Notes under the pieces: generated by a model
Told to the model about the DNA's origin: nothing
The model's input: only the letters and a program-made list of their open reading frames with translations
The model's database searches: none
Part shown: in pieces, positions 6,044-54,194 of the stretch
Numbering within the stretch: the first letter of the stretch is position 1
How the letters are laid out: the number at the start of each line of letters is the position of its first letter
Source of the DNA: Thiobacillus sp. 63-78
Lineage (GTDB): Bacteria > Pseudomonadota > Gammaproteobacteria > Burkholderiales > Thiobacillaceae
DNA: 64,000 nt
Reading direction: 5' to 3'
Assembly: GCA_001899765.1 (NCBI GenBank)
Contig: MKWM01000015.1
Span: forward strand, 1 to 64,000
Translations under genes and position numbers: made by a program

Positions 6044-6397
6044 TCAGCCCGTGCTCCAGGCACGGGGCCGCTTCATGCCCGCGATCTTGCAGGCCTGTTT
6101 CACATAGCCGTAGGGGAACAGCGTCAACAGTTTTTTCTGCGCTTCTCTTTTTGCGTCCTTGTCCTTCTGCGCATCCTTGCCCATGCGTTCGGCCAGATGC
6201 CAGATGACGAAGCGGGCGTCAGCGGCAACCTGGTGTTCTTCGTAGAATTCGCGCATGAAATGGATGGCGCCCCAGTGGTCGTCGCTGAGATTGATGTTCT
6301 CGTCCCTGGCGAGGGCTTTGGCGATTTCCTCGTTCCAGTTGCCGGGATCGATCAGATAACCTTCTGCATCGCGTTCAGGCATCTCGACAGCAGCCAT
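6044..6397 (-). CDS. DsrC/TusE-family sulfur-relay protein lacking the terminal cysteine
   Basis: A 117-residue DsrC/TusE-fold protein: DAEGYLIDPGNWNEEIAKAL, the NINLSDDHWGAIHFMREFYEEH core, and the C-terminal arm KLLTLFPYGYVKQACKIAG. In DsrC two arm cysteines 11 residues apart carry persulfide or trisulfide sulfur. Here the inner cysteine (ACKIAG) is present, but the penultimate one is replaced by Trp in RPRAWSTG. It is therefore neither a canonical DsrC nor a TusE, which keeps the terminal Cys. The ATG at 6397 has AGGAG 6 bases upstream; the frame extends to 6442 without support. It follows the SQR-like gene, which suggests a sulfur-linked or regulatory role. Confidence 0.88.
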   Translation of the reverse strand: MAAVEMPERDAEGYLIDPGNWNEEIAKALARDENINLSDDHWGAIHFMREFYEEHQVAADARFVIWHLAERMGKDAQKDKDAKREAQKKLLTLFPYGYVKQACKIAGMKRPRAWSTG

Positions 6398-6497
6398 GGC
6401 TTTCTCCTGTTCCAATGGGTGGCTTAATGATTTATTTGGCATATATGTTTACATGTTCTGCCGCCGCAATCAAGCCTCTGAGCCGTGAGCGTCCTCG

Positions 6498-8048: not shown

Positions 8049-8071
8049 TTCAGTCTCCTTTGATCGGTTTG

Positions 8072-8131
8072 GGCGCGCGAAGCGCCACGTTCGCCCCCTC
8101 TCCCGCACGCGGGGGAGGGTTGGGGAGGGGG
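8072..8131. repeat. Palindromic intergenic repeat after narI
   Basis: Two hairpins fill the narI/SQR-like gap: GGCGC-gcgaa-GCGCC at 8072-8086, and CCCTCTCCC-gcacgc-GGGGGAGGG at 8096-8119 with a G/T-rich tail. The second has the look of a dispersed extragenic palindrome common in proteobacteria. No ORF is present. Confidence 0.65.
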
Positions 8132-8150
8132 AGCGATTTTGTGCATCTGC

Positions 8151-8834
8151 TTAACCACGCGGCCGTACAAGCTGCCACGCGCGCACGGCGTAGGTCGTCG
8201 CGGCAAAACCGCTCCATACATGCACCAGACGCGTGAAGGGGAAGACGAGGAAAATCGTCATGCCGAGGAACAGGTGGCTCTTGAACACCCAGCCTGCGTC
8301 TTGCAGCAGATCGACCGCGCCGCCGCGGAAGGTGACGATGCGCTGCCCCCATTCGGCCAGGCGGATCATCATGCTGCCGTCCAGATGCTGGGCCGATAGC
8401 GGAATGGTCGCCAGTCCGAGCAGCAACTGCAGCCAGAGCAACCACAGGATCAGGATGTCGCTGGTTTTCGAGGTGGCGCGGATGCGTGGCTCGGTCAGCC
8501 GGCGATGCAGCAGCAGCGAGATGCCGATGAAGGCCAGTACACCCGCGGTGCCACCCGAAATCATGGCGAGGAGCTGCTTGGCGCTGGCACTGATGAACGG
8601 TTCATAAATGAAGTGCGGCGTCAGCATGCCGACGAAATGGCCGAAGAACAGGAACAGCACGCCGATGTGGAACAGGTTGCTGCCCAGACGCAGCTGGCCG
8701 CGCCTGAGCAGTTGCGATGAATCACTCTTCCAGGTGTACTGTTCACGGTCGAAACGGATCAGGCTGCCGAGCAGGAAGATCGTCAGGGCGATGTAGGGAT
8801 AGATTCCGAACAGCAAGGTTTGCGAGTAGGACAT
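8151..8834 (-). CDS. narI: Respiratory nitrate reductase gamma subunit (cytochrome b)
   Basis: A 227-residue membrane subunit with five predicted helices. It opens with LLFGIYPYIALTIFLLGSLI. The heme-b histidine positions are in LGSNLFHIGVLFLFFGHFVG (helix 2) and in KSHLFLGMTIFLVFPFTRLVH (helix 5). NarI takes electrons from quinol on the periplasmic side and passes them to NarH. It is the last nar structural gene of the operon. A nested palindromic repeat separates it from narJ. Confidence 0.96.
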   Translation of the reverse strand: MSYSQTLLFGIYPYIALTIFLLGSLIRFDREQYTWKSDSSQLLRRGQLRLGSNLFHIGVLFLFFGHFVGMLTPHFIYEPFISASAKQLLAMISGGTAGVLAFIGISLLLHRRLTEPRIRATSKTSDILILWLLWLQLLLGLATIPLSAQHLDGSMMIRLAEWGQRIVTFRGGAVDLLQDAGWVFKSHLFLGMTIFLVFPFTRLVHVWSGFAATTYAVRAWQLVRPRG

Positions 8835-8863
8835 TTTCAGATACTCCTTTGACCAAAATTCTC

Positions 8864-8989
8864 ACCACAGAGGCATGAGGACGATAGGGGCCAGGATCTA
8901 GGGGCTAGGGAATGTGGTGCGGCGAAGCCGCACCGCCCCTAATTCCTGGTTCCTGACTCCTGGCCCCTAACTCTCTGTGCCTCCGTGGT
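8864..8989. repeat. Nested palindromic repeat in the narJ/narI gap
   Basis: The outer arms ACCACAGAGGC and GCCTCCGTGGT belong to the same family as the repeats at 11263 and 43956. Between them a second inverted repeat carries arms GGGGCCAGGatctaGGGG and CCTGGcCCCTAA, closing on the small hairpin GCGGCGAAGCCGC. One repeat family therefore appears inserted inside another. No coding potential is evident. Confidence 0.7.
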
Positions 8990-9002
8990 TAAACGGTTTT
9001 AA

Positions 9003-9671
9003 TCAATGTGCCGGGGACGAGGAAGCCTGCCGGCGCGATGCCGGCATCTGCATCACCGATACCTGCGGGCCGGGCTTGAGCAGGGGTTCGACGCCATCCA
9101 GCGACGGGCCGAACATCTCCATGGCCTCGTCCATGTTGCGCACCGGCGGCTCGGCCAGTTCCTGCGCCTCGACGGGCGACAGCGCTTCCAGCAGCTGGAA
9201 CGCGGTGGCATAGGGGCTGCCGTTGGCATCGAGCTTGCGGCCGACGGTGGCGAGCACGTGCACCGCATCGCCCAGCAGGTCGAGCGCCTCGTCAACCGGC
9301 AGCAGCGAGAGGAATTCGAGGAACAGCGGCACATAGTCCGGCAGTTCGGCGGCGCTGGCATCGAAGTCGCGCTTCCAGTATTCCTCCAGCAGGTTGATCA
9401 TGGCCGAGCCGCGATCGCGCGATTCGCCGTGGATGTGCTCGAACAGGTGCAGCGAATGCGAGGGGTTGCGGTCGAAGGTGGCGACGTAGTTTTCCTGCAG
9501 CGCGATCAATCCCGACTCATGCAGCAGATCGAACAACGGCGCCAGGCGGGCCGTGGCATTGCCGTTGAACCCGGTTTCGTCCAGCAGTGCGGCATGCATC
9601 TCGGGCAGCGCTTCCAGCCAGTCGGATTCCGGATACATCAACAGCATGGAAATGACTTTGAAGGTTTTCAT
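9003..9671 (-). CDS. narJ: Nitrate reductase molybdenum cofactor assembly chaperone
   Basis: A 222-residue TorD/NarJ-fold chaperone that binds apo-NarG and controls molybdenum-cofactor insertion before membrane assembly. Seen: the opening FKVISMLLMYPESDWLEAL, the family motif YVATFDRNPSHSLHLFEHIHGESRDRG, and an acidic LPDYVPLFLEFLSLLP helix. It starts 12 bases after narH and is followed by narI across a repeat-filled gap. Confidence 0.95.
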   Translation of the reverse strand: MKTFKVISMLLMYPESDWLEALPEMHAALLDETGFNGNATARLAPLFDLLHESGLIALQENYVATFDRNPSHSLHLFEHIHGESRDRGSAMINLLEEYWKRDFDASAAELPDYVPLFLEFLSLLPVDEALDLLGDAVHVLATVGRKLDANGSPYATAFQLLEALSPVEAQELAEPPVRNMDEAMEMFGPSLDGVEPLLKPGPQVSVMQMPASRRQASSSPAH

Positions 9672-39579: not shown

Positions 39580-39900
39580 TCAGGCCGGCGTCGCAAGCTT
39601 GAGTCCGACGATCCCGGCAATAATCAGCGCAACGCTGATGAGCCGGGCGGTATTCGCAGGCTCTCCGAGCAGCACGATGCCCAGCACCACGGTCCCGACG
39701 GCACCGACCCCCACCCAGACGGCGTATGCGGTGCCCACGGGGAGCGACTTCATGGCGATGCCCAGCAACCCGAGACTGATGGCCATCGACAAGAGCGTGC
39801 CGACGGTAGGCCACAATCGGGTGAACCCCTCGGTGTATTTCAATCCGATTGCCCAGCCGACCTCAAACAGTCCCGCGACGGCAAGAATGAACCAGGCCAT
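39580..39900 (-). CDS. sugE: SMR-family guanidinium exporter SugE/Gdx
   Basis: A 106-residue, four-helix small multidrug resistance protein. The membrane Glu of helix 1 is in [17 protein letters not shown], and the Gdx-type signature [20 protein letters not shown] separates it from EmrE. Gdx subtypes export guanidinium in exchange for protons. The assignment is strongly supported by the guanidine-II riboswitch immediately upstream of its ATG. Confidence 0.93.
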
Positions 39901-39919
39901 GTTGATCTTTCCAGAATGC

Positions 39920-39967
39920 CGGGGTCGTCCCCGAAATATGCTGGAGAAGCGAGGTCGTCCCCGCTTC
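39920..39967 (-). ncRNA. Guanidine-II (mini-ykkC) riboswitch
   Basis: In the minus-strand RNA two hairpins precede sugE. The first, GAAGCGGGG-ACGA-CCTCGCTTC (39967-39946), is a 9-bp stem with one G-U pair. The second, CGGGG-ACGA-CCCCG (39933-39920), is a 5-bp stem. Both have the ACGR tetraloop diagnostic of the guanidine-II class, separated by 12 nt. The element starts 2 bases after the stop codon of the upstream ATPase-like gene and ends 19 bases before the sugE ATG. Ligand binding should expose the ribosome site. Confidence 0.93.
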
Positions 39968-44525: not shown

Positions 44526-44794
44526 CGTAGGGACCTCCGTCGTGACAATGAACTCAAACCAGCGGCCGGGCGTTCCCGCTGGAGCGCAGTGTGATGGTGC
44601 GAACGATTCTCGGAAGACGGTCGCCAAGGCAAGTGCGAGGCCCGCATAGATCACGATCACCACCCGGAAATATTCCGGCGATTCCGCGCGCGATACCGTT
44701 CTGCCCCATGCACCAGACTTTACGTAGACCTCCCCTGTCACTGTAGCGTACAGCGTGTACAAGCCAAGCTTCCTCTCGATGGAAGGGTTGGGTC

Positions 44795-44889
44795 TCACCG
44801 TTTCGCTTTTGCTTTCGCGGGCCAGACGCGAAGCGAGCAGTGTTTGGCCGCATGCGTGAAGTCTTTGTCTGTGGTGAGGAGTTCAGCCG
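44795..44889 (-). pseudogene. C-terminal fragment of a PIN-domain (VapC-like) toxin
   Basis: The minus-strand frame AAELLTTDKDFTHAAKHCSL followed by RVWPAKAKAKR and a stop matches the end of PIN-domain nucleases (LLTTDKDF is the last acidic motif). Its upstream part is replaced by the attC remnant at 44881-44927. This appears to be the decayed last cassette of the integron. Confidence 0.65.
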
Positions 44890-44927
44890 CACCGCGAAAC
44901 GGCATCGGCTTGAATGAATGGTCAGGC
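44881..44927 (-). other. attC site remnant at the distal end of the integron
   Basis: GAAACGGCATCGGCTTGAAT and the core GTCAGGC (44921-44927) match the complete attC at 45532-45592 over about 38 bases. The far half is degenerate (GAGGAGTTCAGCC instead of CCTGAATTAAGCC) and has no core site. It follows higA, whose stop codon lies in the core. Confidence 0.78.
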
Positions 44928-45215
44928 CGCTGCCAGCTTGAGCTTGCCTACGCCGTGCAAATCCACAGACTGCCGTGCGATCCAAAGGTCGTGTGCGTCC
45001 TGCATGGCAAGCCAACTTTCAGGAGAGCGGCCAATGGCCTTGGCAAGACGCAAGGCCATCTCAGGCGAAATACGACCACTGCCGTTCAAAACACGACTGA
45101 GCGTAGAGGCTGCAACGCCGAGCTTTTCGGCTAGCACACGGCCGCTGATCCCATTGGGCTCAAGGTAGATGCCGGCGATGAACTCACCGGGGTGTGGGGG
45201 GTTGTGCATAGTCAT
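44922..45215 (-). CDS. higA: HigA-type antitoxin
   Basis: A 97-residue XRE-family addiction antitoxin: HPGEFIAGIYLEPNGISGRV, a helix-turn-helix in LAEKLGVAASTLSRVLNGSG, and the family's RLAKAIGRSPESWLAMQ. It represses its own operon and blocks HigB. The toxin gene comes first, the usual higBA order; the start overlaps the higB stop by one base. It is carried on an integron cassette. Confidence 0.93.
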   Translation of the reverse strand: MTMHNPPHPGEFIAGIYLEPNGISGRVLAEKLGVAASTLSRVLNGSGRISPEMALRLAKAIGRSPESWLAMQDAHDLWIARQSVDLHGVGKLKLAAA

Positions 45216-45493
45216 TAGTGATAATCCTCATAGTCCAACACATAAGCGTTCCCATCCTGGAACTCGAACGTGATTCGCCAGTTGCCGCTGACGGTAATTG
45301 ACCAGCGACCCCGCATTTCGCCTTTCAATGGATGCAGGCGGAAACCGGGAATGTCCATGTCTTCAATAGTTTGGGCGGTATCCAGTGCGATCAATTGCAG
45401 CCTCAGCCGTTTGATGTGACTGGCTTGAACACCTGATGCACCGCCAGTTTCATACAGACGCCGCAAGCCTTTGTGCCGAAAGGTCTTGATCAT
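45215..45493 (-). CDS. higB: HigB-type mRNA interferase toxin
   Basis: A 92-residue RelE-fold toxin: FRHKGLRRLYETGGASGVQA, a basic helix, HPLKGEMRGRWSITVSGNWR and the closing ITFEFQDGNAYVLDYEDYH. HigB cleaves mRNA on ribosomes. It forms the integron cassette between the attC sites at 44.9 and 45.5 kb with higA. Confidence 0.93.
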   Translation of the reverse strand: MIKTFRHKGLRRLYETGGASGVQASHIKRLRLQLIALDTAQTIEDMDIPGFRLHPLKGEMRGRWSITVSGNWRITFEFQDGNAYVLDYEDYH

Positions 45494-45531
45494 ATGCCGA
45501 ATGTATCACGTTGCGCATCATGCAACAAGTG

Positions 45532-45592
45532 GCCTGACGCCTGAATTAAGCCCGCGCCGCGAAACGGCATCGGCTTGAATGAATGGTCAGGC
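45532..45592 (-). other. attC site (61 bp) of the acetyltransferase/LysE cassette
   Basis: Core heptamers GCCTGAC and GTCAGGC bound a palindromic site whose inner arms include GCCGCGAAACGGC and CGGCTTGAATGAATG. Both cores have GTC instead of the usual GTT, so the crossover base triplet is altered on both ends. Confidence 0.88.
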
Positions 45593-45643
45593 CGCAGGTA
45601 TGCCCAAGTCGAGTGGCCGGGCAAGCCCGGATGCGCGGCGTAT

Positions 45644-46207
45644 TTATTTTTCTGCCGTCGATCTTGACCGGGCTGGATTTCCAAATGCAGTCGCACCTGC
45701 CGGCACATCGCGTGTCACGACGCTTCCGGCACCGATCAGCGCATCGTCCCCGATGGAAACACCCGGCAAGATGATTGCGCCAGCTCCGATCCATACATTG
45801 CGCCCAATGCGGACCGGGCGACCAAACTCCAGGCCCGCAGCCCTTTGCGCCGGGTCACGGGGATGGTCGGCGGTCAAAATCTGCACACCAGGCCCAATTT
45901 GCGTCATGTCTCCAATCACGACTTCCACGACGTCAAGAATCACGCAATTGAAGTTCAGAAAAGCGCCCGCGCCAATCCTGATGTTGAAGCCGTAGTCGCA
46001 ATGGAATGGTGGGCGGATCACGACGCCATCCCCCACAGCGGCAAAGCGTTCCACCAATAGTTGGTGCCGCTCCGTGTGCGGCTTGTCGAGCGACGTGTTA
46101 TAGCGAACCATCCATGCCTGCGCCGCGGCCTGATCGGCCTGGATTTCAGGGGCGCCCGCGTGGTACAGCTCGCCCGCCAGCATTTTCTCTTTTTCCGTTC
46201 GCATCAT
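45644..46207 (-). CDS. Maltose/galactoside O-acetyltransferase family protein (LacA/NodL-like)
   Basis: A 187-residue left-handed beta-helix acetyltransferase. The N-terminal domain is KEKMLAGELYHAGAPEIQAD. Hexapeptide repeats include NIRIGAGAFLNFNCVILDV and IGRNVWIGAGAIILPGVSIG, with the catalytic His in ILTADHPRDP. It acetylates a sugar hydroxyl. It shares a cassette with the LysE-type exporter 55 bases upstream, since no attC lies between them. Confidence 0.93.
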   Translation of the reverse strand: MMRTEKEKMLAGELYHAGAPEIQADQAAAQAWMVRYNTSLDKPHTERHQLLVERFAAVGDGVVIRPPFHCDYGFNIRIGAGAFLNFNCVILDVVEVVIGDMTQIGPGVQILTADHPRDPAQRAAGLEFGRPVRIGRNVWIGAGAIILPGVSIGDDALIGAGSVVTRDVPAGATAFGNPARSRSTAEK

Positions 46208-46262
46208 TCAGTTCTTCGTGATCCTGTGAGTTGGAGGTGCTTGGCCCTTGATGGCATGCCCA

Positions 46263-46895
46263 TCAACCCTTGCGCTCCATGACGATCAGCCGCACTGCAA
46301 GGCCGAGAAAGACCACACCCATCAGGCGCTCAAGCACCAACTGACGACGTGGGCTCGACAGCAGCCATTGCCCCAGGCTGCCGCTGGCGATGGACAAGCC
46401 TGCCTGGAATAGCAGGCCGAGAAATGCCAGGACTGCGCCGAGGCCGACAATTTGCTGGAAGATCGACCCGAAGGACGGCGAGGCGAATTGCGGCAGAAAC
46501 ACGCCAGAAAACAGGATGGCCTTGGGGTTCAGCAGATTCGTGAAGAACCCGCGACGGAAGTTCTCGAATGGGGAGCGGCTGGTAGTTTGAGTGCCGGTCT
46601 CGAAAGGCCTGGCGCGAAACGACTTGTAGGCGAGGAAGACCAGGTAGGCCGCGCCACCATAGCGGATGATATCGAACGCGAGAGGCGACGTGGCGACGAT
46701 TGCCGCAACCCCCACGGCAGCAAACACCGCATGAGCAAACATGGCCAGTGCGATGCCCGTAGAAGCCCATAAGGCGGGACGGCGGCCTTCAGTCACCCCA
46801 GTGGCGACAATAAATGCCACATCAGGCCCCGGCGTGATAAGTAGCACGAAGGACACCGCGAGGAAGACGGGCAGGACAGAAATATCAAACGGCAT
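46263..46895 (-). CDS. LysE/RhtB family exporter
   Basis: A 210-residue, six-helix amino-acid exporter: LAVSFVLLITPGPDVAFIVA carries the LysE signature TPGPD, then GYAL-type RYGGAAYLVFLAYKSFRARP and FRRGFFTNLLNPKAILFSGV. Substrate unknown. It is the promoter-proximal gene of a two-gene cassette. Confidence 0.93.
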   Translation of the reverse strand: MPFDISVLPVFLAVSFVLLITPGPDVAFIVATGVTEGRRPALWASTGIALAMFAHAVFAAVGVAAIVATSPLAFDIIRYGGAAYLVFLAYKSFRARPFETGTQTTSRSPFENFRRGFFTNLLNPKAILFSGVFLPQFASPSFGSIFQQIVGLGAVLAFLGLLFQAGLSIASGSLGQWLLSSPRRQLVLERLMGVVFLGLAVRLIVMERKG

Positions 46896-46911
46896 GGTGC
46901 CTCCGTGAAAG

Positions 46912-46980
46912 GGCTAACGAATGAGGTAACCGGCCTCGCGCGGCCTGATGCGCGAGGCCCGGTTGACCGAGAGGTTAGCC
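46912..46980 (-). other. attC site (69 bp) of the hicAB cassette
   Basis: GGCTAAC and GTTAGCC cores are exact inverses. The inner arms GGTAACCGGCCTCGCGC and GCGCGAGGCCCGGTTGACC form a strong stem. The hicB stop codon lies in the core. Confidence 0.92.
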
Positions 46981-47313
46981 ACCTGGTTGAACCGCCTGCT
47001 GTAGAACCTCGGTCGCCCACTGGTTAAGGCTCTTGCCAGCGGCCTGTGCGGCCACCAGAGCCCGACCGTGAACCTCAGGGGGCACACGGAGCAACAACTT
47101 GCCGGATGCTGGCTTCTCAGGATGAAGTCCCTCCTTCTTGCACTCAGCGAGATAGTCTTTAACAGCATGCTCAAACTCGGCCCGCAACTCCGCAACCGTC
47201 TCGCCATGAAAGCTAATGATGCTGCGGATGCCGAGAATGCGGCCGACGAAAATATTGTCTCGCTCGTCGTACTCGACGCGAGCGGTATAGCCCTTATATG
47301 ACATAGTGTTCAT
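46975..47313 (-). CDS. hicB: HicB-type antitoxin
   Basis: A 112-residue antitoxin. The N-terminal partial RNase-H-like domain (YKGYTARVEYDERDNIFVGR; FHGETVAELRAEFEHAVKDY) is followed by a ribbon-helix-helix tail (KLLLRVPPEVHGRALVAAQA, then KSLNQWATEVL). The ATG at 47313 overlaps the hicA stop (ATGA); the open frame extends further but inside hicA. Confidence 0.92.
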   Translation of the reverse strand: MNTMSYKGYTARVEYDERDNIFVGRILGIRSIISFHGETVAELRAEFEHAVKDYLAECKKEGLHPEKPASGKLLLRVPPEVHGRALVAAQAAGKSLNQWATEVLQQAVQPGG

Positions 47314-47564
47314 GGCATTACTCCTACGCGTTCCAGAAGCTCTCGCGCCTCTTCGACTTGATAACGCTTGGCTTCCTTTCCCGGATGTGGCCGATGGCAC
47401 CGCCACTGCTCACCCTTGAACTCGATCTTGACGCGCGAACCCTCGCGCTCCGAGATGAAAGCTCCAAGAGCCTTCATCAACGCTTCAATGTCAGCGAACG
47501 GAATGGACGCTGATGTCGGGCGCGCAAAGATGGCGCTGAGCGTTTTTCGATGTTTGGCGTTCAC
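47310..47564 (-). CDS. hicA: HicA-type mRNA interferase toxin
   Basis: An 84-residue protein of the HicA/YcfA-like dsRBD fold: RKTLSAIFARPTSASIPFAD, IEALMKALGAFISEREGSRV and FKGEQWRCHRPHPGKEAKRY (the His-containing strand). Members of the family cleave RNA. It is first in the hicAB pair on this cassette. Confidence 0.87.
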   Translation of the reverse strand: MNAKHRKTLSAIFARPTSASIPFADIEALMKALGAFISEREGSRVKIEFKGEQWRCHRPHPGKEAKRYQVEEARELLERVGVMP

Positions 47565-47616
47565 GAGGGGACGATATCATAAAGTGATATCACTTGCAAT
47601 CGGGTAAGCGTGAGGT

Positions 47617-47707
47617 GGCTAACGTTCAAGTTCAGGGGTGTGCCAACGCCTGAGTTCAGGAGCGTGCTACCCATAGGCGGAGCGTCCCCTGCAACGCCGG
47701 GTTGGAC
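47617..47707 (-). other. Candidate attC site (91 bp)
   Basis: GGCTAAC at 47617 and GTTGGAC at 47701 (a full GTTRRRY match) bound an imperfect palindrome with arms such as TTCAGGGG and CCCCTGCAA. A separate hairpin, TCACGG-CAGGAAA-CCGTGA (47709-47727), follows just before the antitoxin stop codon. Confidence 0.72.
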
Positions 47708-47732
47708 CTCACGGCAGGAAACCGTGAAGTAC

Positions 47733-48020
47733 TCATGAATGGATCGGAGAAGCTGAGAGCTTCACACCGAGAGCGTGAAGTAGTTTGAGCATGGTGTCGT
47801 AGCGTGGCTTGGCGCCTGGTGTAAGCGCTTTGTAGAGACTCTCGCGGCCAAGGCCGGTATCCTTCGCAAGTTGTGCCATACCACGGGCGCGAGCCACATC
47901 ACGCACTGCGGTTAGAAATACATCGGGATTGGAATCTTCCAATGCGACGGTTATGTACTCTGCGATGGTTTCTTCATCATCGAGATAATCAGCAGCGTCG
48001 AAGGGTGCAAATTTGGCCAT
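47733..48020 (-). CDS. Addiction-module antidote protein (HigA-like), orphan
   Basis: A 95-residue antitoxin: FDAADYLDDEETIAEYITVA, FLTAVRDVARARGMAQLAKD, then the helix-turn-helix TGLGRESLYKALTPGAKPRY. This family normally follows a RelE/ParE-type toxin gene and overlaps or abuts it. The upstream toxin here is truncated, so the antitoxin seems to be left without an active partner. Confidence 0.9.
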   Translation of the reverse strand: MAKFAPFDAADYLDDEETIAEYITVALEDSNPDVFLTAVRDVARARGMAQLAKDTGLGRESLYKALTPGAKPRYDTMLKLLHALGVKLSASPIHS

Positions 48021-48023
48021 GGT

Positions 48024-48200
48024 TCACTCCTTATCCAAAACCCGCGCCATCTCAAGGGCGCGCTTGATGTCACGCTTCTGCGAGGACTTATTGCCACCCA
48101 GGAGAAGCAGGTAGATCACCTCGCCGCGACGAGTGAAATAGACTCGATAGCCGGGGCCGAAATGGAGTGCTGCGTAAATGTGGCTGGCAAAAAAAGCAGA
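48024..48200 (-). pseudogene. N-terminally truncated RelE/ParE toxin joined to an attC half
   Basis: The last 50 or so codons (GPGYRVYFTRRGEVIYLLLL; KSSQKRDIKRALEMARVL) are the C-terminal half of a RelE/ParE-type killer protein, which is normally about 100 residues. The first half is missing. Upstream the frame runs through attC sequence into unrelated codons back to an ATG at 48365, giving a 113-residue composite frame. The toxin is probably inactive. Confidence 0.78.
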
Positions 48201-48264
48201 AGCATTTGAATTCATCGGCCTACGCGGCGCTATGCGCAAGGTCCGGTGAAATGACGGGTTGGGC
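48200..48264 (-). other. Partial attC site fused to the truncated toxin
   Basis: The right core GTTGGGC (48258-48264) is intact. TTCATCGGCCTACGCGGCGC and GCGCAAGGTCCGGTGAAATGA form the arms. The left core is missing and the toxin fragment starts instead, so a deletion removed the cassette end and the toxin N-terminus together. Confidence 0.72.
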
Positions 48265-48361
48265 ATCGCCGATTGATTGGCAGGCAGGTGTCGGATATGG
48301 CGTCGTGCCAGCAGGTCGGCCATCTCACCTGTTTTTTTCAGGGAGATGGTGTCCAATCTTG

Positions 48362-48589
48362 TCATGCACCAATCAATTGTGCGCTGTAACCGAAGGACTG
48401 GACCTTAGCCAGTAATACCGCTGTGGAGGTTGCGTCTGGATTAAAGGCAACCAGCAATAAATGCTCTTTTCCAGGATTGAAACGTGGGGAGACCACACCG
48501 TCCAATTGCCGCATCGATTCCTCCAGCGTCTTTCTTTGTTGCTCGTTAAGGTCTTGATTAATATGAATCATAACGTCGCTGATATCCAT
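48362..48589 (-). CDS. Small HMA-like protein without metal-binding cysteines
   Basis: A 75-residue protein with a ferredoxin-like heavy-metal-associated fold pattern: VMIHINQDLNEQQRKTLEES, MRQLDGVVSPRFNPGKEHLL, then LLAKVQSFGYSAQLIGA. The CxxC metal site of HMA domains is absent. Proteins like this occur in sulfur-oxidising proteobacteria, but the function is unknown. A short frame starting in its stop codon (ATGA, 48365) leads into the composite toxin frame. Confidence 0.72.
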   Translation of the reverse strand: MDISDVMIHINQDLNEQQRKTLEESMRQLDGVVSPRFNPGKEHLLLVAFNPDATSTAVLLAKVQSFGYSAQLIGA

Positions 48590-48665
48590 GATACTGCTCT
48601 CCTGATGATGACCGGACAGGCAATATTTTTATATCACGTTAACGCAGATATACAAACGCTCCACG

Positions 48666-48835
48666 GCCTAACGCCTACCGTCAGCGATTGGGCTGATGAT
48701 GCCGGCTGGACGTTGCGGACTGGTGGGGCTTGTCATGGTTTATCTCCATGGTTGTGGTGAAACTAATCATAGCTGCCCAAGCAGGGTACCCGGCAGCATC
48801 GCTGACGGTCGCTCCACTCGAATACACAGTTATGC
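48666..48835 (-). other. Atypical long attC-like site (about 170 bp)
   Basis: The left core GCCTAAC is followed by ACCGTCAGCGAT; the inverse ATCGCTGACGGT precedes a right core-like GTTATGC (48829-48835), which contains the rhodanese stop codon. The centre is longer than in ordinary attC sites, so this may be two sites fused or one interrupted by an insertion. Confidence 0.55.
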
Positions 48836-49717
48836 GTCATCTCGCTCGATCGGCAGTGTCTCGTCGTTCGCCCACTCATGCATCGAGTTATCGTAGACAG
48901 CAACATTCGGATACTCGAGTTGGTGCAGTAAAAAAGCGTCCAGCGTCGCCGCGATGCCGCCGCCGCAATAAACCAGTACACGCTTTGATGGCTCCGCGCC
49001 GGCCTGCGTGAACGCTGCACCAACGACATCTGCACTCTTAAGCGTGAGGGAGTGTTCTTCGATCAGCGAAAGCGCGGGCACGTTGACACTTCCAGGGACG
49101 CGCCCGGGGCGCCCATACCGCGGGTTGTCGCCGCTGTGCAGGTCAGGTGCGAGCGCGTTGATCATGCACGCACGCGGATCGCCAATGGCCGCCTTCACTT
49201 CATCCTTCCCGATGAAAATCTCGTGGCGCGGCTTGGTTACGAGCGTTGCCGGCGGATAGCACGTCTCGATCGTTTCCGTCGGCCGCCCTTCTGCGATCCA
49301 TTTGTCGAAGCCGCCGTTGAGAATTGCGGCATTATCGAAACCAACGTACCGAAGCATCCACCATAGGCGCGTTGCCCACTGCATCCGTTTTCGCGAGTAG
49401 AGGACGACATGAGAGCCTGTGCCGATGCCTTTCTCAGCGAAGCGAACGGCGAGAGTTTCAACATTCGGTAAGGTGAAACGAAACTTGCTCGAACTGTCAG
49501 AGAGTTCCTCTTGCAAATCGAGAAAAGCGGACCCCGGTATATGCGCTCTTTCGTATTCGGCACGACCGCTCTCCACGCGGTACGGCCTGCCGGTTCCAAT
49601 TTCGTCATGGAGAAACGTTGTGCAATCAAAAACCCGCAGATGGGAATCGCCGAGACTATTCGCCAGCCACTCGGTTTCGACGATTGCACCGGGGTTTGCA
49701 TATCGCGTCGCGCTCAT
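48830..49717 (-). CDS. Two-domain rhodanese sulfurtransferase
   Basis: A 295-residue protein with two rhodanese domains. The first (WLANSLGDSHLRVFDCTTFL; HIPGSAFLDLQ; YSRKRMQWATRLWWMLRYVG) lacks the catalytic Cys. The second (GRVPGSVNVPALSLIE) has the active loop VYCGGGIAATLDAFLL with the sulfur-carrying Cys. It moves sulfur from thiosulfate or 3-mercaptopyruvate to cyanide or a thiol. It is an integron cassette gene bounded by attC sites. Confidence 0.92.
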   Translation of the reverse strand: MSATRYANPGAIVETEWLANSLGDSHLRVFDCTTFLHDEIGTGRPYRVESGRAEYERAHIPGSAFLDLQEELSDSSSKFRFTLPNVETLAVRFAEKGIGTGSHVVLYSRKRMQWATRLWWMLRYVGFDNAAILNGGFDKWIAEGRPTETIETCYPPATLVTKPRHEIFIGKDEVKAAIGDPRACMINALAPDLHSGDNPRYGRPGRVPGSVNVPALSLIEEHSLTLKSADVVGAAFTQAGAEPSKRVLVYCGGGIAATLDAFLLHQLEYPNVAVYDNSMHEWANDETLPIERDDA

Positions 49718-50094
49718 AAAGCTTCCTTTCCGCTTCGTGGTGATGTTGTATAACGTTCAACTTGAGAGGCCGGACACAAGGGGTGCGCAGCCCCGCTTGT
49801 GTCCGGTCCCCTCGAAGTTGTTGTTATCCACTCTTGCTCAGTGTTCGTGCATGCTTCAGGCGCGGTTGCATTTAGCATGGTCGAACAATAGAACACGAAA
49901 ATAATCTTAAAACTGGGTTTCTGCACTTCAGGCACGAGCAGAATTTGGCCGCATCGATCCCAATCGACGCTATAGCTCTTCGGTGTAGGGGCTGAGAAAA
50001 ATGTGGTCTCGATCACAGCTTGTTGTGCGGATGCCTCGAAGGGCAAGAAGCAGATGAGTACAGGCGCGAAACAAATAGTTCGAGCTATCTTCAT
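49714..50094 (-). CDS. Small exported protein whose frame runs through attC
   Basis: A 126-codon frame with a clear signal peptide (MKIARTICFAPVLICFLPFE, then ASAQQ). The mature part, VIETTFFSAPTPKSYSVDWD onward, has cysteines at CGQILLVPEV, FYCSTML and EACTNTEQ. No family is recognised. After about residue 88 the frame crosses the attC site at 49748-49829 and ends over the rhodanese start, so the natural C-terminus may be lost or recruited from attC. Confidence 0.6.
   Translation of the reverse strand: MKIARTICFAPVLICFLPFEASAQQAVIETTFFSAPTPKSYSVDWDRCGQILLVPEVQKPSFKIIFVFYCSTMLNATAPEACTNTEQEWITTTSRGPDTSGAAHPLCPASQVERYTTSPRSGKEAL
49748..49829 (-). other. attC site (82 bp)
   Basis: GTATAAC and GTTATCC cores. 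The inner palindrome has perfect arms GGCCGGACACAAG and CTTGTGTCCGG around GGGGTGCGCAGCCCCG, itself a small hairpin. It separates the small exported-protein cassette from the rhodanese cassette. Confidence 0.9.
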
Positions 50095-50238
50095 TTAAGC
50101 GCGCTAACGTAGAGCTAACCGGCTCGCCAACAGGTTTGCCTCCTCGGTATTACATCGGTCATCCATGCCGGAGCTCAGAAAGATTGGCTTGAACATCCAG
50201 GCGCGTCCCGGTATCGGCGGCATAGCAAGGGACAGCCG

Positions 50239-50295
50239 AGCTAACAGCCACCGGTGCGCCGCTTGCGACGCGTCCGGTGCACTGCAGTGTTGGGC
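50239..50295 (-). other. attC site (57 bp)
   Basis: AGCTAAC and GTTGGGC cores; arms AGCCACCGG and CCGGTGCACT around GCGCCGCTTGCGACGC. It lies just left of the nuclease-like cassette gene. Extra CTAAC motifs at 50102 and 50113 suggest an older site between it and the exported-protein gene. Confidence 0.9.
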
Positions 50296-50302
50296 ATCGT
50301 TG

Positions 50303-50923
50303 TCACAGAACACGAATGTTCTCCTCGAACTGACGTTCGTCACGTGACCTTTCGAATACCTCCCAGAGTGCCGTGCCATGCGCATCCCATTGCGGATGCG
50401 ACGCCTTCTGATTCTTGTATTCGCTGAAACGCCGGTAGATGAACGCAAGAACGTCTGGCCAGAGAACTTGCGGAACCAGAGGATACCGGGCTGCTACGTC
50501 CGGATTGACCTCACGACCGAGACACATTAGCGAGACGTAATAGAGCTGGCTTTGATAGTGGCCTGTCTCGTATAGGGATTGGGCCGCCAAGTCCGCCTCG
50601 ATTTTTGGAAAGGCGCCGACTGCGCGAAACACGCGCAGCATGTTTTGACGCTCCGGGCTCGTCCAAGGTCCGTTCAGTGCGCAGCGCCCGCTTTTTACCT
50701 CAGCAATGGCGATGAACGACTTCTCGTGCACCCTCGTAAAGCGAGGCTCATCCTTCATGGGGCGATGAAGGTTCTCGGCACGGTAGGGCAAACGAATGCC
50801 CAATACATCAACGTCGGTCTCTTGATTTCTGCCGCAATCTGGATGGACGACGAAATTCGGAATGGTCAGAAAGCCGTTCAAGCGCAAATACCAATACGCG
50901 AGTTGTTCTGAGCTTATGTCCAT
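50303..50923 (-). CDS. PD-(D/E)XK nuclease-like cassette protein
   Basis: A 206-residue protein from the ATG at 50923. HPDCGRNQETDVDVLGIRLP supplies an Asp, and KSFIAIAEVKSGRCALNGPW supplies the E-V-K of the PD-(D/E)XK nuclease superfamily. The rest is helical (LWPDVLAFIYRRFSEYKNQK). The motif pattern suggests a DNA-cutting or repair-type enzyme, possibly part of defence, but no specific family was recognised. No methylase accompanies it in the cassette. Confidence 0.65.
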   Translation of the reverse strand: MDISSEQLAYWYLRLNGFLTIPNFVVHPDCGRNQETDVDVLGIRLPYRAENLHRPMKDEPRFTRVHEKSFIAIAEVKSGRCALNGPWTSPERQNMLRVFRAVGAFPKIEADLAAQSLYETGHYQSQLYYVSLMCLGREVNPDVAARYPLVPQVLWPDVLAFIYRRFSEYKNQKASHPQWDAHGTALWEVFERSRDERQFEENIRVL

Positions 50924-50943
50924 AAATTGACCGCGGCTACGAC

Positions 50944-51015
50944 GCCCAACGTTTGCGCTCAGGCGCCCGGAAGGAGCGTAGCGACTGACGGGTCGCCTGG
51001 AGCGCATTGTTGGGC
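50944..51015 (-). other. attC site (72 bp)
   Basis: GCCCAAC and GTTGGGC cores are exact inverses. Arms GCGCTCAGGCG and CGCCTGGAGCGC, with an inner GGAGCGTAGCGACTGACGGG, complete the site. Confidence 0.93.
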
Positions 51016-51016
51016 T

Positions 51017-51409
51017 TCATGAACACGTCACCTCTGCTCGGTCATTGCGGTGAACCACAGAAACCCACCGCTCATTTTCAAAAGAGAATCTCACCTCTAC
51101 TCCACCCGCACTCAATTCTTGTGTGAGTAAGACCAGACAAGCTCCTTTAATGTGGCATTTTGACCCGATGTCCTCCAAGCCAAACTCGAAGCCCGCCTCG
51201 TTTGATTTCTCGGGCGCCCCCTCAGACCTGCGCCAAAAGATTAGGAACGGCTCAAAGTAGAGGCGATACCACGCGCCTTCAAAACACATGTGTGTGATGT
51301 ACGCTCTGTCTTCGATGATGCCTTCATGCCGATAGTCTTGGCACAGAAACGCCTCGCACCGCTTCCCCTCAATTTGTGGCACATCACCATTTATGTACAG
51401 CTCATCCAT
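51017..51409 (-). CDS. Hypothetical integron cassette protein
   Basis: A 130-residue soluble protein: MDELYINGDVPQIEGKRCEA, EDRAYITHMCFEGAWYRLYF, FLIFWRRSEGAPEKSNEAGF and VRFSFENERWVSVVHRNDRA. Predicted mainly beta-strand. No family recognised. Bounded on both sides by complete attC sites, so it is a cassette gene. Confidence 0.72.
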   Translation of the reverse strand: MDELYINGDVPQIEGKRCEAFLCQDYRHEGIIEDRAYITHMCFEGAWYRLYFEPFLIFWRRSEGAPEKSNEAGFEFGLEDIGSKCHIKGACLVLLTQELSAGGVEVRFSFENERWVSVVHRNDRAEVTCS

Positions 51410-51428
51410 GGGTCATTGCTTCCTGTTA

Positions 51429-51485
51429 GCCCAACGCTAGAGTTAAGCGGCGGCGAAGCCGTCCGCCTTGAACGAGTTGTTAGCC
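51429..51485 (-). other. attC site (57 bp)
   Basis: GCCCAAC and GTTAGCC cores; arms AGTTAAGCGGCGG and CCGTCCGCCTTGAAC around a CGAAG turn. Typical size and layout. Confidence 0.92.
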
Positions 51486-51539
51486 GGCAGCGGAACTCAA
51501 GAGCGTGCAAAAATACGCCGATTGATGTTGAGGTGAACC

Positions 51540-52064
51540 ATGCACAGCTTTGATGAACTTGCCTCCCGGTGCGCCGCTTTTACCCTTGCAAGCTTGCAGG
51601 ATGCGAACGAGCGAACCGTTGAAGCGCTGCAAACCAGTGGCGCCACCTCGCTCGTTAAAACACTACAGATGATACAGCTGCAGAAAGTGATCTTGGCGGT
51701 TGGAATGTTCTCGATCTTTGAAGCGAGCTTACAGGACCGTTTTGGCTGCAGCGACGGCTTCCGTGAGGCCGGGCAAATCTTAGATCAACAAGGTGAGACC
51801 GAGCTGAAGGAAAAGTTCTCCAATCTCGCCGCAGCCATCAATGTACTCAAGCATGGCAAGGGCCGCAGCTACGATGCTCTTGTGGCGAAGGCTGAGACCC
51901 TACCATTTCGCGTAAAGATGCCCGACGAGGCGTTTTTCTTTGAGGGTGACGTTTCCGAGGTCTCAACTCTTGTCGAAGTAGACGATGAATTCGTACAGCG
52001 GTGCGGCAACGTAATTGACCAAGTATCTCAAGTCTTGCGCAGGGCACGCCCGGACTTTTTCTGA
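51540..52064 (+). CDS. Hypothetical cassette protein in reverse orientation (HEPN-like?)
   Basis: A 174-residue helical protein encoded opposite to the other cassette genes: LASRCAAFTLASLQDANERT, ILAVGMFSIFEASLQDRFGC and AAINVLKHGKGRSYDALVAK. The LKHGKG(R)S segment and all-helical pattern recall HEPN-type RNases, but no full R-x4-6-H motif can be confirmed. The flanking attC sites at 51.43 and 52.09 kb show it is a cassette gene; it probably has its own promoter in the 54 bases upstream. Confidence 0.65.
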   Translation: MHSFDELASRCAAFTLASLQDANERTVEALQTSGATSLVKTLQMIQLQKVILAVGMFSIFEASLQDRFGCSDGFREAGQILDQQGETELKEKFSNLAAAINVLKHGKGRSYDALVAKAETLPFRVKMPDEAFFFEGDVSEVSTLVEVDDEFVQRCGNVIDQVSQVLRRARPDFF

Positions 52065-52089
52065 CAATTTAGCGGCGCATGCTCTTAAA

Positions 52090-52156
52090 GGCTAACGTTT
52101 GAATTGAGCGGCCTGCGCGGCTTTTCGCGCAGGTCCGCTCGAATGATGGGTTCGGC
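52090..52156 (-). other. attC site (67 bp)
   Basis: GGCTAAC and GTTCGGC cores; arms TTGAGCGGCCTGCGCG and CGCGCAGGTCCGCTCGAA around GCTTTT. It lies left of the AbiU2-like gene. Confidence 0.88.
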
Positions 52157-52162
52157 CTCGGC

Positions 52163-52708
52163 TCACTTGAGCGCTCTCAGCAACTTCAACGTAGCCTCAC
52201 CAAGCCGCCCATCACGAGGAATTCCGATAGCACCTTGATGAGGAGCACCGGCAAGTTGTTCAATGAATGTAGCGGCGTCGTAAATGATGCGGCGGACTTC
52301 ATTCCAGGTGATATTGAGTGGAGAGAAGACATCTTTCTCAGAGAGGCGGGCATCAATGTGAGCGACGGTCTTGTGGCGCACGGTGACAAGCGGAGCTGCC
52401 CGATTTGCCAATGCCGTATAGCTCGACTCAATATCTTGAAACTTCGTTGGGTCTGTTTCTTCTCGGATGAGCGCTAGGTAGGTTGGCAATGATGAAGAGT
52501 CGGAACGTTTGTCAAAGAGGTGCGCCAAGTAGATGAAGCATGCCGTGTAATGAGCATCTTGTGACGCGCGGAAGAAGTCACTGTGCTCGTTCATTGAGCG
52601 GAAAAACTGAGGCTTGGCGTCACTCATTTGTGCCCACCAGACGTCGTAGTGAGTTTTCGCGCCCGTCGCCGAGCTAACCAAATCAGCAAGTACCTTCGAG
52701 CGGTTCAT
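52163..52708 (-). CDS. AbiU2-like protein (possible abortive-infection HEPN)
   Basis: A 181-residue protein from the ATG at 52708; a GTG at 52741 would add 11 residues but overlaps attC. It reads YDVWWAQMSDAKPQFFRSMN, DAHYTACFIYLAHLFDKRSD, then VTVRHKTVAHIDARLSEKDV, and ends in a C-terminal helix. The RHKxVAHxD segment and helical layout resemble the AbiU2 domain of phage-exclusion proteins. The match is from memory. It is the first complete cassette gene next to the integrase end. Confidence 0.62.
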   Translation of the reverse strand: MNRSKVLADLVSSATGAKTHYDVWWAQMSDAKPQFFRSMNEHSDFFRASQDAHYTACFIYLAHLFDKRSDSSSLPTYLALIREETDPTKFQDIESSYTALANRAAPLVTVRHKTVAHIDARLSEKDVFSPLNITWNEVRRIIYDAATFIEQLAGAPHQGAIGIPRDGRLGEATLKLLRALK

Positions 52709-52740
52709 GTAGAGGCCGAACGTGTTCGAGTTGAGTACCA

Positions 52741-52801
52741 CCCCGAAGGGGCGTAAGCCGGGAGCGAAGCGAGCGGTGTGTGCTCCAACGAGGCGTTAGG
52801 C
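52741..52801 (-). other. Partial or divergent attC site
   Basis: The right core GTTAGGC (52795-52801) is good. ACCCCGAAGGGG, GGAGCGAAGCGAGC and TGTGCTCC make internal stems. No RYYYAAC core is seen on the left, where the AbiU2-like gene begins. Confidence 0.58.
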
Positions 52802-53093
52802 GCAGATGGCCATGTATCCACTGGACTGGTTTGGATCACGCTTTTCCCTTCCTTCGACTCGGGCCGCTCTGTTGGAAAGAAACGTCCCCCCGCAATATTG
52901 TTATGTGGCGCGAAGCGTAGTCCACGTCGTCCGCATCAACGGCTTTGTGTTATGCGGCGAACGTTGCATACGCTTCGCTCAATAGCATTTTTAACGGCCA
53001 CCGTAAATTCACCAATTTCCATTCCACCTCATCAGTTGTCGGTGGCTGAAACATGCTCGCGAAGACCGCTCACGCGTGCGCATGGCTATCTGA
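52802..53093. other. Integrase-proximal region without a supported gene
   Basis: About 290 bases between the last attC and the attI core. It contains core-like heptamers GTTATGT (52900-52906) and GTTATGC (52949-52955) around GCGCGAAGCGTAGTCCACG, suggesting one or more decayed gene-less cassettes. No open frame here has a convincing start. Confidence 0.5.
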
Positions 53094-53151
53094 GCTTAAC
53101 GTGCAATATACACCTTGAAAGGTGTATATATAAGTTCATATAAGGTGTATA
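53094..53151. other. Candidate attI site and palindromic element
   Basis: The core GCTTAAC (inverse GTTAAGC, a full GTTRRRY match) at 53094-53100 is followed by a perfect palindrome with arms ATATACACCTT and AAGGTGTATAT around GA (53106-53129), then a third direct copy AAGGTGTATA at 53142-53151. Integrase-binding repeats next to a core site are what an attI should have. The AT-rich stretch from here to 53215 probably also holds the intI promoter and the cassette promoter. Confidence 0.65.
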
Positions 53152-53215
53152 AAACCGGAACAAACTTCATAATATCTTTGATTTATATGATTTATCGCTA
53201 TTAGTTAGGGGGCAT

Positions 53216-54194
53216 ATGTTTCCAGCAGATATACTTTCCTCCCCCCAAACTGCTCGACCAAGTGCGCGACCGGGTCCGGGTCAAGCATTACAGCATTCGC
53301 ACCGAGACGCAATATGTGCAGTGGATCCGGCGGTTCATCCTGTTTCACGGCAAGCGCCATCCGCGTGATCTTGGGGCGCCGGAGGTCGAGGCGTTTCTGA
53401 CGCATCTTGCGGTGGAGGGCAATGTGGCGGCGGCGACGCAGAATCAGGCTTTGTCGGCGCTGCTTTTTCTGTACCGCGAGGTGCTGGGAATCGAGTTGCC
53501 CTGGCTCGACAAGCTGACGCGCGCGAAGCGCCCACAGCGCTTGCCGGTGGTGCTGACGCGCGACGAGGTGCGGGCGGTGCTGGGGAAGATGGACGGTGTT
53601 TACGGTCTGCTGGCGCGTCTGCTGTACGGTACGGGGATGCGCTTGATGGAGGTGATCCGCTTGCGGGTGAAGGATGTGGAGTTCACCCGCGGCGAGATCG
53701 TGGTGCGCGATGGCAAGGGGGCGAAGGATCGGGTGACCATGCTGCCCGAATCGGTCAAGGCCGATTTGCGGGCTCATCTGGCGCGGCGGCGCGATCTGTT
53801 CGAGCAGGACAGGCGGGTGGGCAAGGCCGCGGTTTATCTGCCGGATGCACTGGCACACAAATACCCGAACGCATCGACGGAGTGGGGCTGGCAGTATGTG
53901 TTTCCCTCGGGCAGCTATTCGATCGATCCGCGCAGCGGCGAGGAGCGCCGGCATCATCTCGACGAAAAGCTGCTGCAGCGCGCGATGAAACGGGCGGTGC
54001 AGGCGGCGGACCTGGCCAAACCGGCGACGCCGCATACGCTGCGGCATTCGTTCGCCACGCATCTGCTGGAGCGCGGGCAGGACATTCGCACGATTCAGGA
54101 ACTGCTGGGCCACAAGGATGTGGCGACGACGATGATTTACACGCATGTATTGAACAAGGGCGGGCATGGGGTGTTGAGCCCGCTGGATATGTGA
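53216..54194 (+). CDS. intI: Integron integrase IntI (frame interrupted near the start)
   Basis: A tyrosine recombinase of 310 residues from the GTG at 53262. The catalytic set is Arg127 ([12 protein letters not shown]), His258/Arg261 ([12 protein letters not shown]), His284 and Tyr293 ([17 protein letters not shown]). The IntI-specific extra domain [20 protein letters not shown] is present, which separates it from XerC/D and phage integrases. Codons before 53262 (PKLLDQ) also match IntI, but the only ATG, at 53216 after AGGGGG, is out of frame unless one C is removed from the CCCCCC run at 53241-53246. It reads away from the cassette array. Confidence 0.92.

Follow-up and report, generated by a model that had tools for sequence, protein, structure and literature searches.

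The integron of the window

We analysed a 64,000-nucleotide stretch of the genome of Thiobacillus sp. 63-78 (contig MKWM01000015.1, positions 1 to 64,000; hereafter the window), in which an integron extends from an attC remnant at 44876 to the end of the integrase gene at 54194. There is hardly any doubt that this is a chromosomal integron in a Thiobacillus species, with one integrase gene, one attI, ten attC sites recognised by a covariance model and about eleven cassettes. An earlier note, made from the sequence alone, had proposed an integron with defence-type cassettes. The integron is real; its integrase, the attC array and cassettes for toxin–antitoxin (TA) pairs and an AbiU2-like protein were all found, as was attI, whereas the defence label held only in part. 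The note had passed over the LysE exporter, the maltose-O-acetyltransferase-like protein, a TA pair with a truncated toxin, the frame problem of intI and a gene-less cassette. The integron by itself is an ordinary sedentary integron. The gene-less cassette, which stands first in the array, is the main subject of this report.

The integrase gene intI (53262..54194, plus strand) encodes 310 residues when read from a GTG. The product scored 487 bits against TIGR02249 (cut-off 265), or 492.9 bits when read from 53250, and stayed under the cut-offs of the XerC and XerD models, which places it inside IntI as the earlier note had assumed. The frame is open from 53205 to the stop ending at 54194, and the GTG at 53262, its first standard in-frame start, is a possible start of the gene. 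The ATG at 53216 is out of the integrase frame, and directly downstream of it four relatives (L009-L012) have five more bases. No SOS box was found in the window with up to three mismatches to the consensus. In a profile search of the whole 3.2-Mb, 74-contig genome, this was the one integron integrase above the curated cut-off. The closest integrases, 92-94% identical, were from Thiobacillus and proteobacterial assemblies, and a genome placed in the same genus by the genome search (G009) agrees base for base with Thiobacillus sp. 65-1059 over 2,983 bases; the host of the integron is thus Thiobacillus.

Upstream of intI, an element with AAGGTGTATA-like repeats was common to 11 of 15 aligned relatives and ended at a GTT core (L009 was cut short, and L014, L015 and L029 lacked the element in the 500 bases aligned). 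Past this core the relatives diverged, with the exception of L011 and L012, which also carry the first cassette of the window. On the basis of the shared element and the divergence beyond it, attI was placed at 53094..53151 (minus strand), with the GTT core at 53098-53100 and AAGGTGTATA repeated three times. These three are the sole exact occurrences of the repeat in the window, in which none was expected.

Our first, simple attC scanner discriminated poorly (1.1 hits per array length in dinucleotide shuffles at a score of at least 40) and was used solely to gather seed sites from relatives. It gave 112 candidates from 48 of 80 integrase loci, and 59 with fitting length and score were retained. 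Of these, seven were discarded prior to alignment, six for an odd orientation or shape and one as an identical duplicate. From the remaining 52 sites, all of other genomes, we built an attC covariance model (R1) whose seed contains no window sequence; the L stem was strongly covarying in the alignment. R1 was run on both strands of the 64 kb with filters off. As a result, ten attC sites with 71.8 to 21.0 bits were obtained, all on the minus strand and all inside 45,532-52,801, and the eleventh match, elsewhere in the window, scored 11.9 bits. The array runs leftward, away from intI, as had been described. The seven sites that the earlier note had called clear were all among the ten, those at 47617, 48196 and 52715 being additional, and the lengths spanned 57-91 bp as it had claimed.

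From the integrase side, the sites are the attC of cassette 1 at 52715..52801 (21.0 bits; the same site in the relative L011 scored 34.4 bits), followed by 52090..52156 (71.8 bits), 51429..51485 (45.0 bits), 50944..51015 (51.0 bits), 50239..50295 (28.2 bits), 49748..49829 (35.1 bits), a remnant without the GTT core at its R' end that lies within a toxin frame (48196..48264, 29.5 bits), 47617..47707 (43.0 bits), 46912..46980 (58.2 bits) and 45532..45592 (40.7 bits). In the last of these GAC/GTC replace AAC/GTT, an alteration of both cores that may prevent recombination at this site. A remnant at the distal end (44876..44927, minus strand) is 88% identical over 49 bp to an attC of another locus (L082); its score of 10.9 bits is at background level, no better than the best match outside the array. 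Beyond it, a stretch that looks like an attC 5' half, with R'' and L'' alone, was noticed by eye at 44770-44798 (minus strand), and is not among the R1 matches. The attC at 52090 is 98% identical over 65 bp to that of a Sulfuriferula integron and the one at 45532 is 88-90% identical to sites in other integrons, which makes the proposed origin of the cassettes from several sources plausible.

Cassette 1 represents a family of gene-less cassettes

Cassette 1 (52721..53099, minus strand, 379 bp) lies between attI and the AbiU2 cassette. It ends with its own 87-bp attC and qualifies as an open reading frame (ORF)-less cassette. Homologous units are present in other genomes. In Thiobacillus 65-1059 the unit is also in first place and the next cassette is a different one. 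When 56 Thiobacillus genomes were searched at the DNA level, 23 had some match, in several cases to no more than attI, and eight, among them that of the window, matched over nearly the full length. Starting from another copy, we found matches in 17 of 117 genomes of the bacterial family, many of them partial. Complete copies extend from the GTT core to the core of their own attC, and the cassettes measure 296-416 bp.

We considered a coding role and rejected it: small ORFs are present on both strands (28 and 59 residues in the window, for example), but they are disrupted by frameshift indels in relatives. When ten copies were compared with their majority sequence, 31 of 32 indels were not a multiple of three. 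No ORF of at least 25 residues was common to all ten, and one 25-residue ORF inside the attC recurred in seven. With frame-breaking indels and no common ORF, cassette 1 is non-coding. A search of 52700-53250 against Rfam gave no match up to an E value of 5.

The position of the cassette within its array was counted as the number of R1 matches between it and the integrase, a measure that sites missed by R1 would raise. It was first in eight loci (the window, L011, L144, L157, L158, L016, L044 and L046), second in L143 and L162, third in L145, L160 and L164, and fourth in L161 and L051. A search of 72,556 plasmid records with one copy of the family gave no match, and nine pattern matches in viral contigs were all without the hairpin described below.

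We are confident that these units form a real family of gene-less cassettes. Another view of the locus is that of an ordinary sedentary integron in which the gene-less cassette is decayed, functionless filler. The parts of the platform are all ordinary, as are most of the cassettes, and intI and one toxin gene are damaged, all of which would fit such decay. A gene-less cassette with a covarying fold that is common to integrons of several bacterial families is left unexplained by it, and we regard this view as quite unlikely.

A conserved bulged hairpin

The central part of cassette 1 contains a conserved bulged hairpin (52904..52988, minus strand; stem at about 52910-52978), with up to 29 pairs, single-base bulges and a short loop. 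A hairpin model (R2) was made from ten copies. Among 399 genomes of the order, R2 matched in 11, and the bulged head was present in eight including that of the window, in seven of these by the exact pattern and in G337 by a variant. All seven head-bearing genomes besides that of the window have an intI above the cut-off, against a background of 142 of 398 genomes (P 7e-4). R2 also matched integron loci of Halothiobacillus, Sterolibacterium and others. In the class, six of 369 genomes matched including that of the window, with G672 a clear further member that has adjacent attC sites. Excluded from the counts were G213, G444 and G464 of the order scan, where both the bulged head and an intI above the cut-off were missing, and, of the class scan, G588 and G786, which have an altered head (L212, L216 and L214), and G628 and G810, where the matches were mostly plain palindromes.

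We aligned 20 copies of the hairpin, leaving out identical (L158, L087 and extra copies of G337), partial and late-found ones. In 18 of the 20 copies R1 places an attC shortly after the hairpin; the attC of L149 is shortened and L046 has no R1 match. When ten copies were folded singly, all surpassed their own shuffles (z -3.75 to -8.7), that of L016 having an altered inner part. Under the stated structure 88.7% of cells in the alignment pair, and 17 of the 29 pairs vary on both sides. Covariation was 0.287; shuffles gave 0.120, and slid partners 0.097 at most.

Three further loci (L211, L215 and L217) contain long, nearly perfect palindromes that share the AGCGAAGC outer arm with the hairpin and lack the bulged head; they are possibly distant relatives of it. 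Those of L215 and L217 adjoin attC sites, and the latter is near an integrase 44% identical to IntI.

Directly before the hairpin, a TGnTA motif was recognised by eye in 18 of the 20 copies, which we take to resemble an extended -10 element. The motif would suit a cassette that controls transcription, starting or shielding that of the downstream cassettes, with the hairpin in the leader. According to PMC11014356, most of 29 gene-less Vibrio cassettes that were tested have promoter activity. On the other side, the same paper states that promoters in such cassettes are undetectable in silico. A promoter alone would leave the covarying hairpin, the closing stem and the scarcity of G-U pairs (see below) unexplained, and we consider a promoter cassette unlikely.

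The hairpin pairs like attC

G-U pairs are tolerated in RNA helices and less so in folded DNA. We compared the hairpin with the attC L stem and, as an RNA control, with 4.5S RNA from that order, for which 40 genomes had a match and 30 loci, forming 29 distinct rows, were used. The share of G-U was 1.6% in the hairpin, 0.5% in the attC L stem and 13.1% in 4.5S RNA. Of the changed cells, three of 66 in the hairpin and two of 113 in the L stem were one-sided, as against 34 of 88 in 4.5S RNA. G-T mismatches outnumbered A-C mismatches 123:4 in 4.5S RNA; the corresponding ratios were 8:12 for the hairpin and 2:13 for attC. With few G-U pairs, few one-sided changes and a low G-T to A-C ratio, the hairpin pairs like attC.

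These values bear on the possibility that the hairpin is a small RNA (sRNA) or another RNA element, comparable to sRNA-Xcc1, which is encoded in an integron of Xanthomonas. A conserved, covarying hairpin in a non-coding cassette would be in keeping with such an element, and integron-encoded sRNAs exist (PMC8876359). The G-U share and the mismatch ratio are far from those of 4.5S RNA, and neither the sRNA-Xcc1 model (RF02221) nor any other Rfam family matches at the cassette up to an E value of 5. In the genome itself RF02221 gave a single chance match, elsewhere, of 16.9 bits (gathering score 53). An RNA function is, in our judgement, improbable, and the pairing suggests instead that the hairpin probably acts as folded single-stranded DNA.

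On one arm, the head of the hairpin has two bulges of a single base each, at a distance of six bases and next to a GTT/AAC trio. In attC, the conserved extrahelical bases are a G in L'' and, at a distance of 6 to 8 nt, a T (PMC2727003). The head is similar to the attC L box in its paired bulges beside the trio. It differs from attC in that the arms are permuted, the core-like trio is at the loop and no outer R box is present. With its arms permuted and without an R box, the hairpin is not an attC. It was outside the ten best R1 matches, and 52900-52940 scored 7.7 bits.

A stem that would close the cassette

The ends of cassette 1 are also complementary. On the minus strand, a 5' arm (53080..53093) pairs with a 3' arm directly before the attC (52802..52815). 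In 19 measured copies (L149 and L046 left out), the bases past the 5' GTTRRRY pair with those ahead of the attC R'', with differing sequences in distant copies and weaker pairing in L051 and L164. Judged from these alignments, the closing stem covaries, like the hairpin. Its score beyond the R box averaged 35.1 (25 to 45) in the 19 copies and 23.7 in 86 other cassettes of the same loci. Since ordinary cassettes also out-pair permuted ends, a weaker closing stem is general. Folding the bottom strand as a circle with DNA parameters gave a mean z of -4.3 for the 19 copies and -2.1 for a comparison set of 25 cassettes of about the same length, which were hand-picked from neighbouring attC pairs.

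A possible role of the fold

In integrons, a cassette enters at attI or at an attC in the form of a folded single strand, which IntI cuts. The strand of cassette 1 would fold with the attC at one end, the bulged hairpin in the middle and the closing stem joining the cassette ends, and in the excised circle the closing stem would extend the attC stem. We propose that hairpin and closing stem act as folded DNA, most likely aiding the folding of their own strand, the binding of IntI or replication, and that the cassette would thereby spread and persist as a near-selfish element; a promoter effect, if any, would come second. Support is good for the family and its fold; the pairing is better explained by action as DNA, and the biological role is offered as a hypothesis. 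For this reading as a whole, a gene-less, near-selfish cassette whose fold acts as DNA, we see about even chances. That the fold has a role in the recombination of its own cassette is a tentative part of it and, in our view, less likely than not. A more specific version appears rather unlikely: a structure-only integron parasite comparable to a miniature inverted-repeat transposable element (MITE), that is, a rod with the attC at one end and, at the other, a hairpin with attC-like bulges that the integrase could recognise. Such an element would have spread among beta- and gammaproteobacterial integrons by out-recombining or out-replicating gene cassettes.

Several points weigh against a fold that acts as DNA in a near-selfish cassette. 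The ends of ordinary cassettes also pair, the best reaching 34.5 when the lowest values of the family are 25-26. The copy in the window is among the weakest folders (z -1.6 for the top strand and -2.3 for the bottom strand). The copies are related, so the counts are not phylogenetically independent, and 4.5S RNA is the sole RNA control for G-U. Templated correction can also keep perfect palindromes without selection; yet the bulges persist in most copies. In L158 the hairpin stands beside intI (G273, 6294-9013), but the nearest model attC is 2.5 kb off, as if something had inserted into the cassette. Finally, present mobility is doubtful because intI of the window has no in-frame ATG. An early survey counted nearly one third of intI genes as pseudogenes (PMC2426708), and a weakened integrase would therefore not be unusual.

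The prevailing view is that an integron cassette is a gene carried by a recombination site. If our proposal is true, DNA structure alone can be reason enough for a cassette to be retained. Some of the unannotated content of cassette arrays would then be explained, and the family would offer a natural handle on what makes cassette strands recombine well. If the hairpin binds IntI, it would represent a second class of folded integrase site.

Gene cassettes 2 to 11

The remaining cassettes carry genes, on the minus strand unless stated otherwise. Pfam matches upheld the higBA, hicAB, AbiU2-like and rhodanese cassettes named by the earlier note. Cassette 2 encodes a HEPN_AbiU2 protein (52163..52708; PF18734, E 2.6e-20, or 3.1e-20 for a longer frame), which passes the gathering score of 26.8 with 72.9-73.2 bits; a search of plasmids found no homologue. 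Cassette 3 encodes a 174-residue protein in the orientation opposite to the array (51540..52064, plus strand), with a single plasmid homologue (50.6% identical). No family match was found for it in Pfam, NCBIfam, PADLOC or PHROGs apart from a sub-threshold Pfam match (E 0.033), and our guess of a HEPN fold was unsupported and abandoned. The 130-residue protein of cassette 4 (51017..51409), of no assigned family, has two plasmid homologues (31-33% identical).

Cassette 5 encodes a protein labelled PD-(D/E)XK-like by eye (50303..50923). The nuclease-like motif, also pointed out in the earlier note, could be recognised, but no match was obtained in Pfam, NCBIfam, PADLOC or PHROGs, a PDB sequence search gave nothing below E 0.7, and a search for viral relatives found none. 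Near its one plasmid homologue (45.8% identical) are a gene annotated as PDDEXK and a helicase of the UvrD type. The 126-residue ORF of cassette 6 (49714..50094) matches a PHROG of unknown function (E 0.01). It has no stop ahead of its attC, passes through the site and terminates overlapping the start of the rhodanese gene (49714-49829). With this overlap, translational coupling of cassettes 6 and 7 is conceivable.

Cassette 7 contains the rhodanese-domain gene (48830..49717; PF00581, E 7.1e-25) and a 75-residue ORF (48362..48589) with a weak NCBIfam match far under the cut-off (E 0.0035). In cassette 8, a toxin frame (48024..48365; TIGR02683, 60.0 bits, cut-off 62.85) matches the HI1419 family in residues 67-108 only and has the attC remnant without the R' core in mid-frame. 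The sequence indicates that the toxin of this third TA pair, of the HI1419/HI1420 type, is truncated. It is followed by the HI1420-type antitoxin (47733..48020; PF21716, E 5.7e-37). Cassette 9 encodes HicA toxin (47310..47564; PF07927, E 2.5e-7) and HicB antitoxin (46975..47406; PF05534, E 8.9e-18), whose true start is probably later. Cassette 10 encodes a LysE-type exporter (46263..46895; PF01810, E 4e-33) and a maltose-O-acetyltransferase-like protein (45644..46207; Pfam Mac and Hexapep; NF007499, 197 bits, cut-off 314), and cassette 11 HigB toxin (45215..45493; PF05015, E 5.6e-23) and a HigA-type antitoxin (44922..45215; HTH_3, E 1.3e-11).

One HEPN_AbiU2 domain, one nuclease-like motif and the TA pairs speak for calling these cassettes defence-type. 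On the other side, PADLOC identified no system among the ten proteins submitted (best E 0.044), a set that left out the higBA, hicB, LysE and acetyltransferase proteins.

Other features of the window and genome

Outside the integron, a Guanidine-II riboswitch (RF01068, 48.2 bits) precedes the gene of an exporter of the small multidrug resistance family (Pfam E 1.2e-28) at 39580-39966 (minus strand), which is an ordinary guanidine exporter arrangement. A whole-genome search with R1, which scored 150 of 3,580 candidates and did not list the weakest site of the window (52715), revealed further attC-like sites at position 63483 of contig C12 and two on contig C42. The three sites, with 35.8-48.9 bits, correspond to 5484-5554 of locus L090 (C12) and to 947-1010 and 1609-1672 of locus L089 (C42). 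Those on C42 come after a metallo-beta-lactamase-fold (ODP family) gene and a SnoaL-like gene and look like cassettes without an integrase nearby.

Comparison with known systems

The integron shares with the sedentary chromosomal integrons of beta- and gammaproteobacteria the same IntI, an attI, an attC array pointing away from intI, and TA and unknown cassettes; its intI and its type of attC were seen in Thiobacillus and many relatives. It differs from them in an intI without an in-frame ATG and in a first cassette that is gene-less and carries a second conserved hairpin.

From Vibrio, gene-less cassettes that act as promoters have been reported (PMC11014356), and gene-less promoter cassettes are also reported from the oral metagenome (PMC6557892). 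Cassette 1 has in common with them an attC without a gene. The words hairpin and secondary structure are absent from the main text of PMC11014356, and the promoter activity of cassette 1 is putative. A search of the open-access literature on ORF-less or gene-less cassettes, inverted repeats and hairpins found no description of the cassette family, subscription papers being mostly outside its scope.

The cassette of sRNA-Xcc1, the integron-encoded sRNA of Xanthomonas described in PMC8876359, is likewise non-coding and has a conserved structured element. It differs in that its Rfam model finds no counterpart in cassette 1, where the pairing is not RNA-like. In pairing there is a resemblance to attC itself as a folded single-stranded DNA hairpin (PMC2727003): attC and the hairpin of cassette 1 alike have a G-U-poor, covarying stem.

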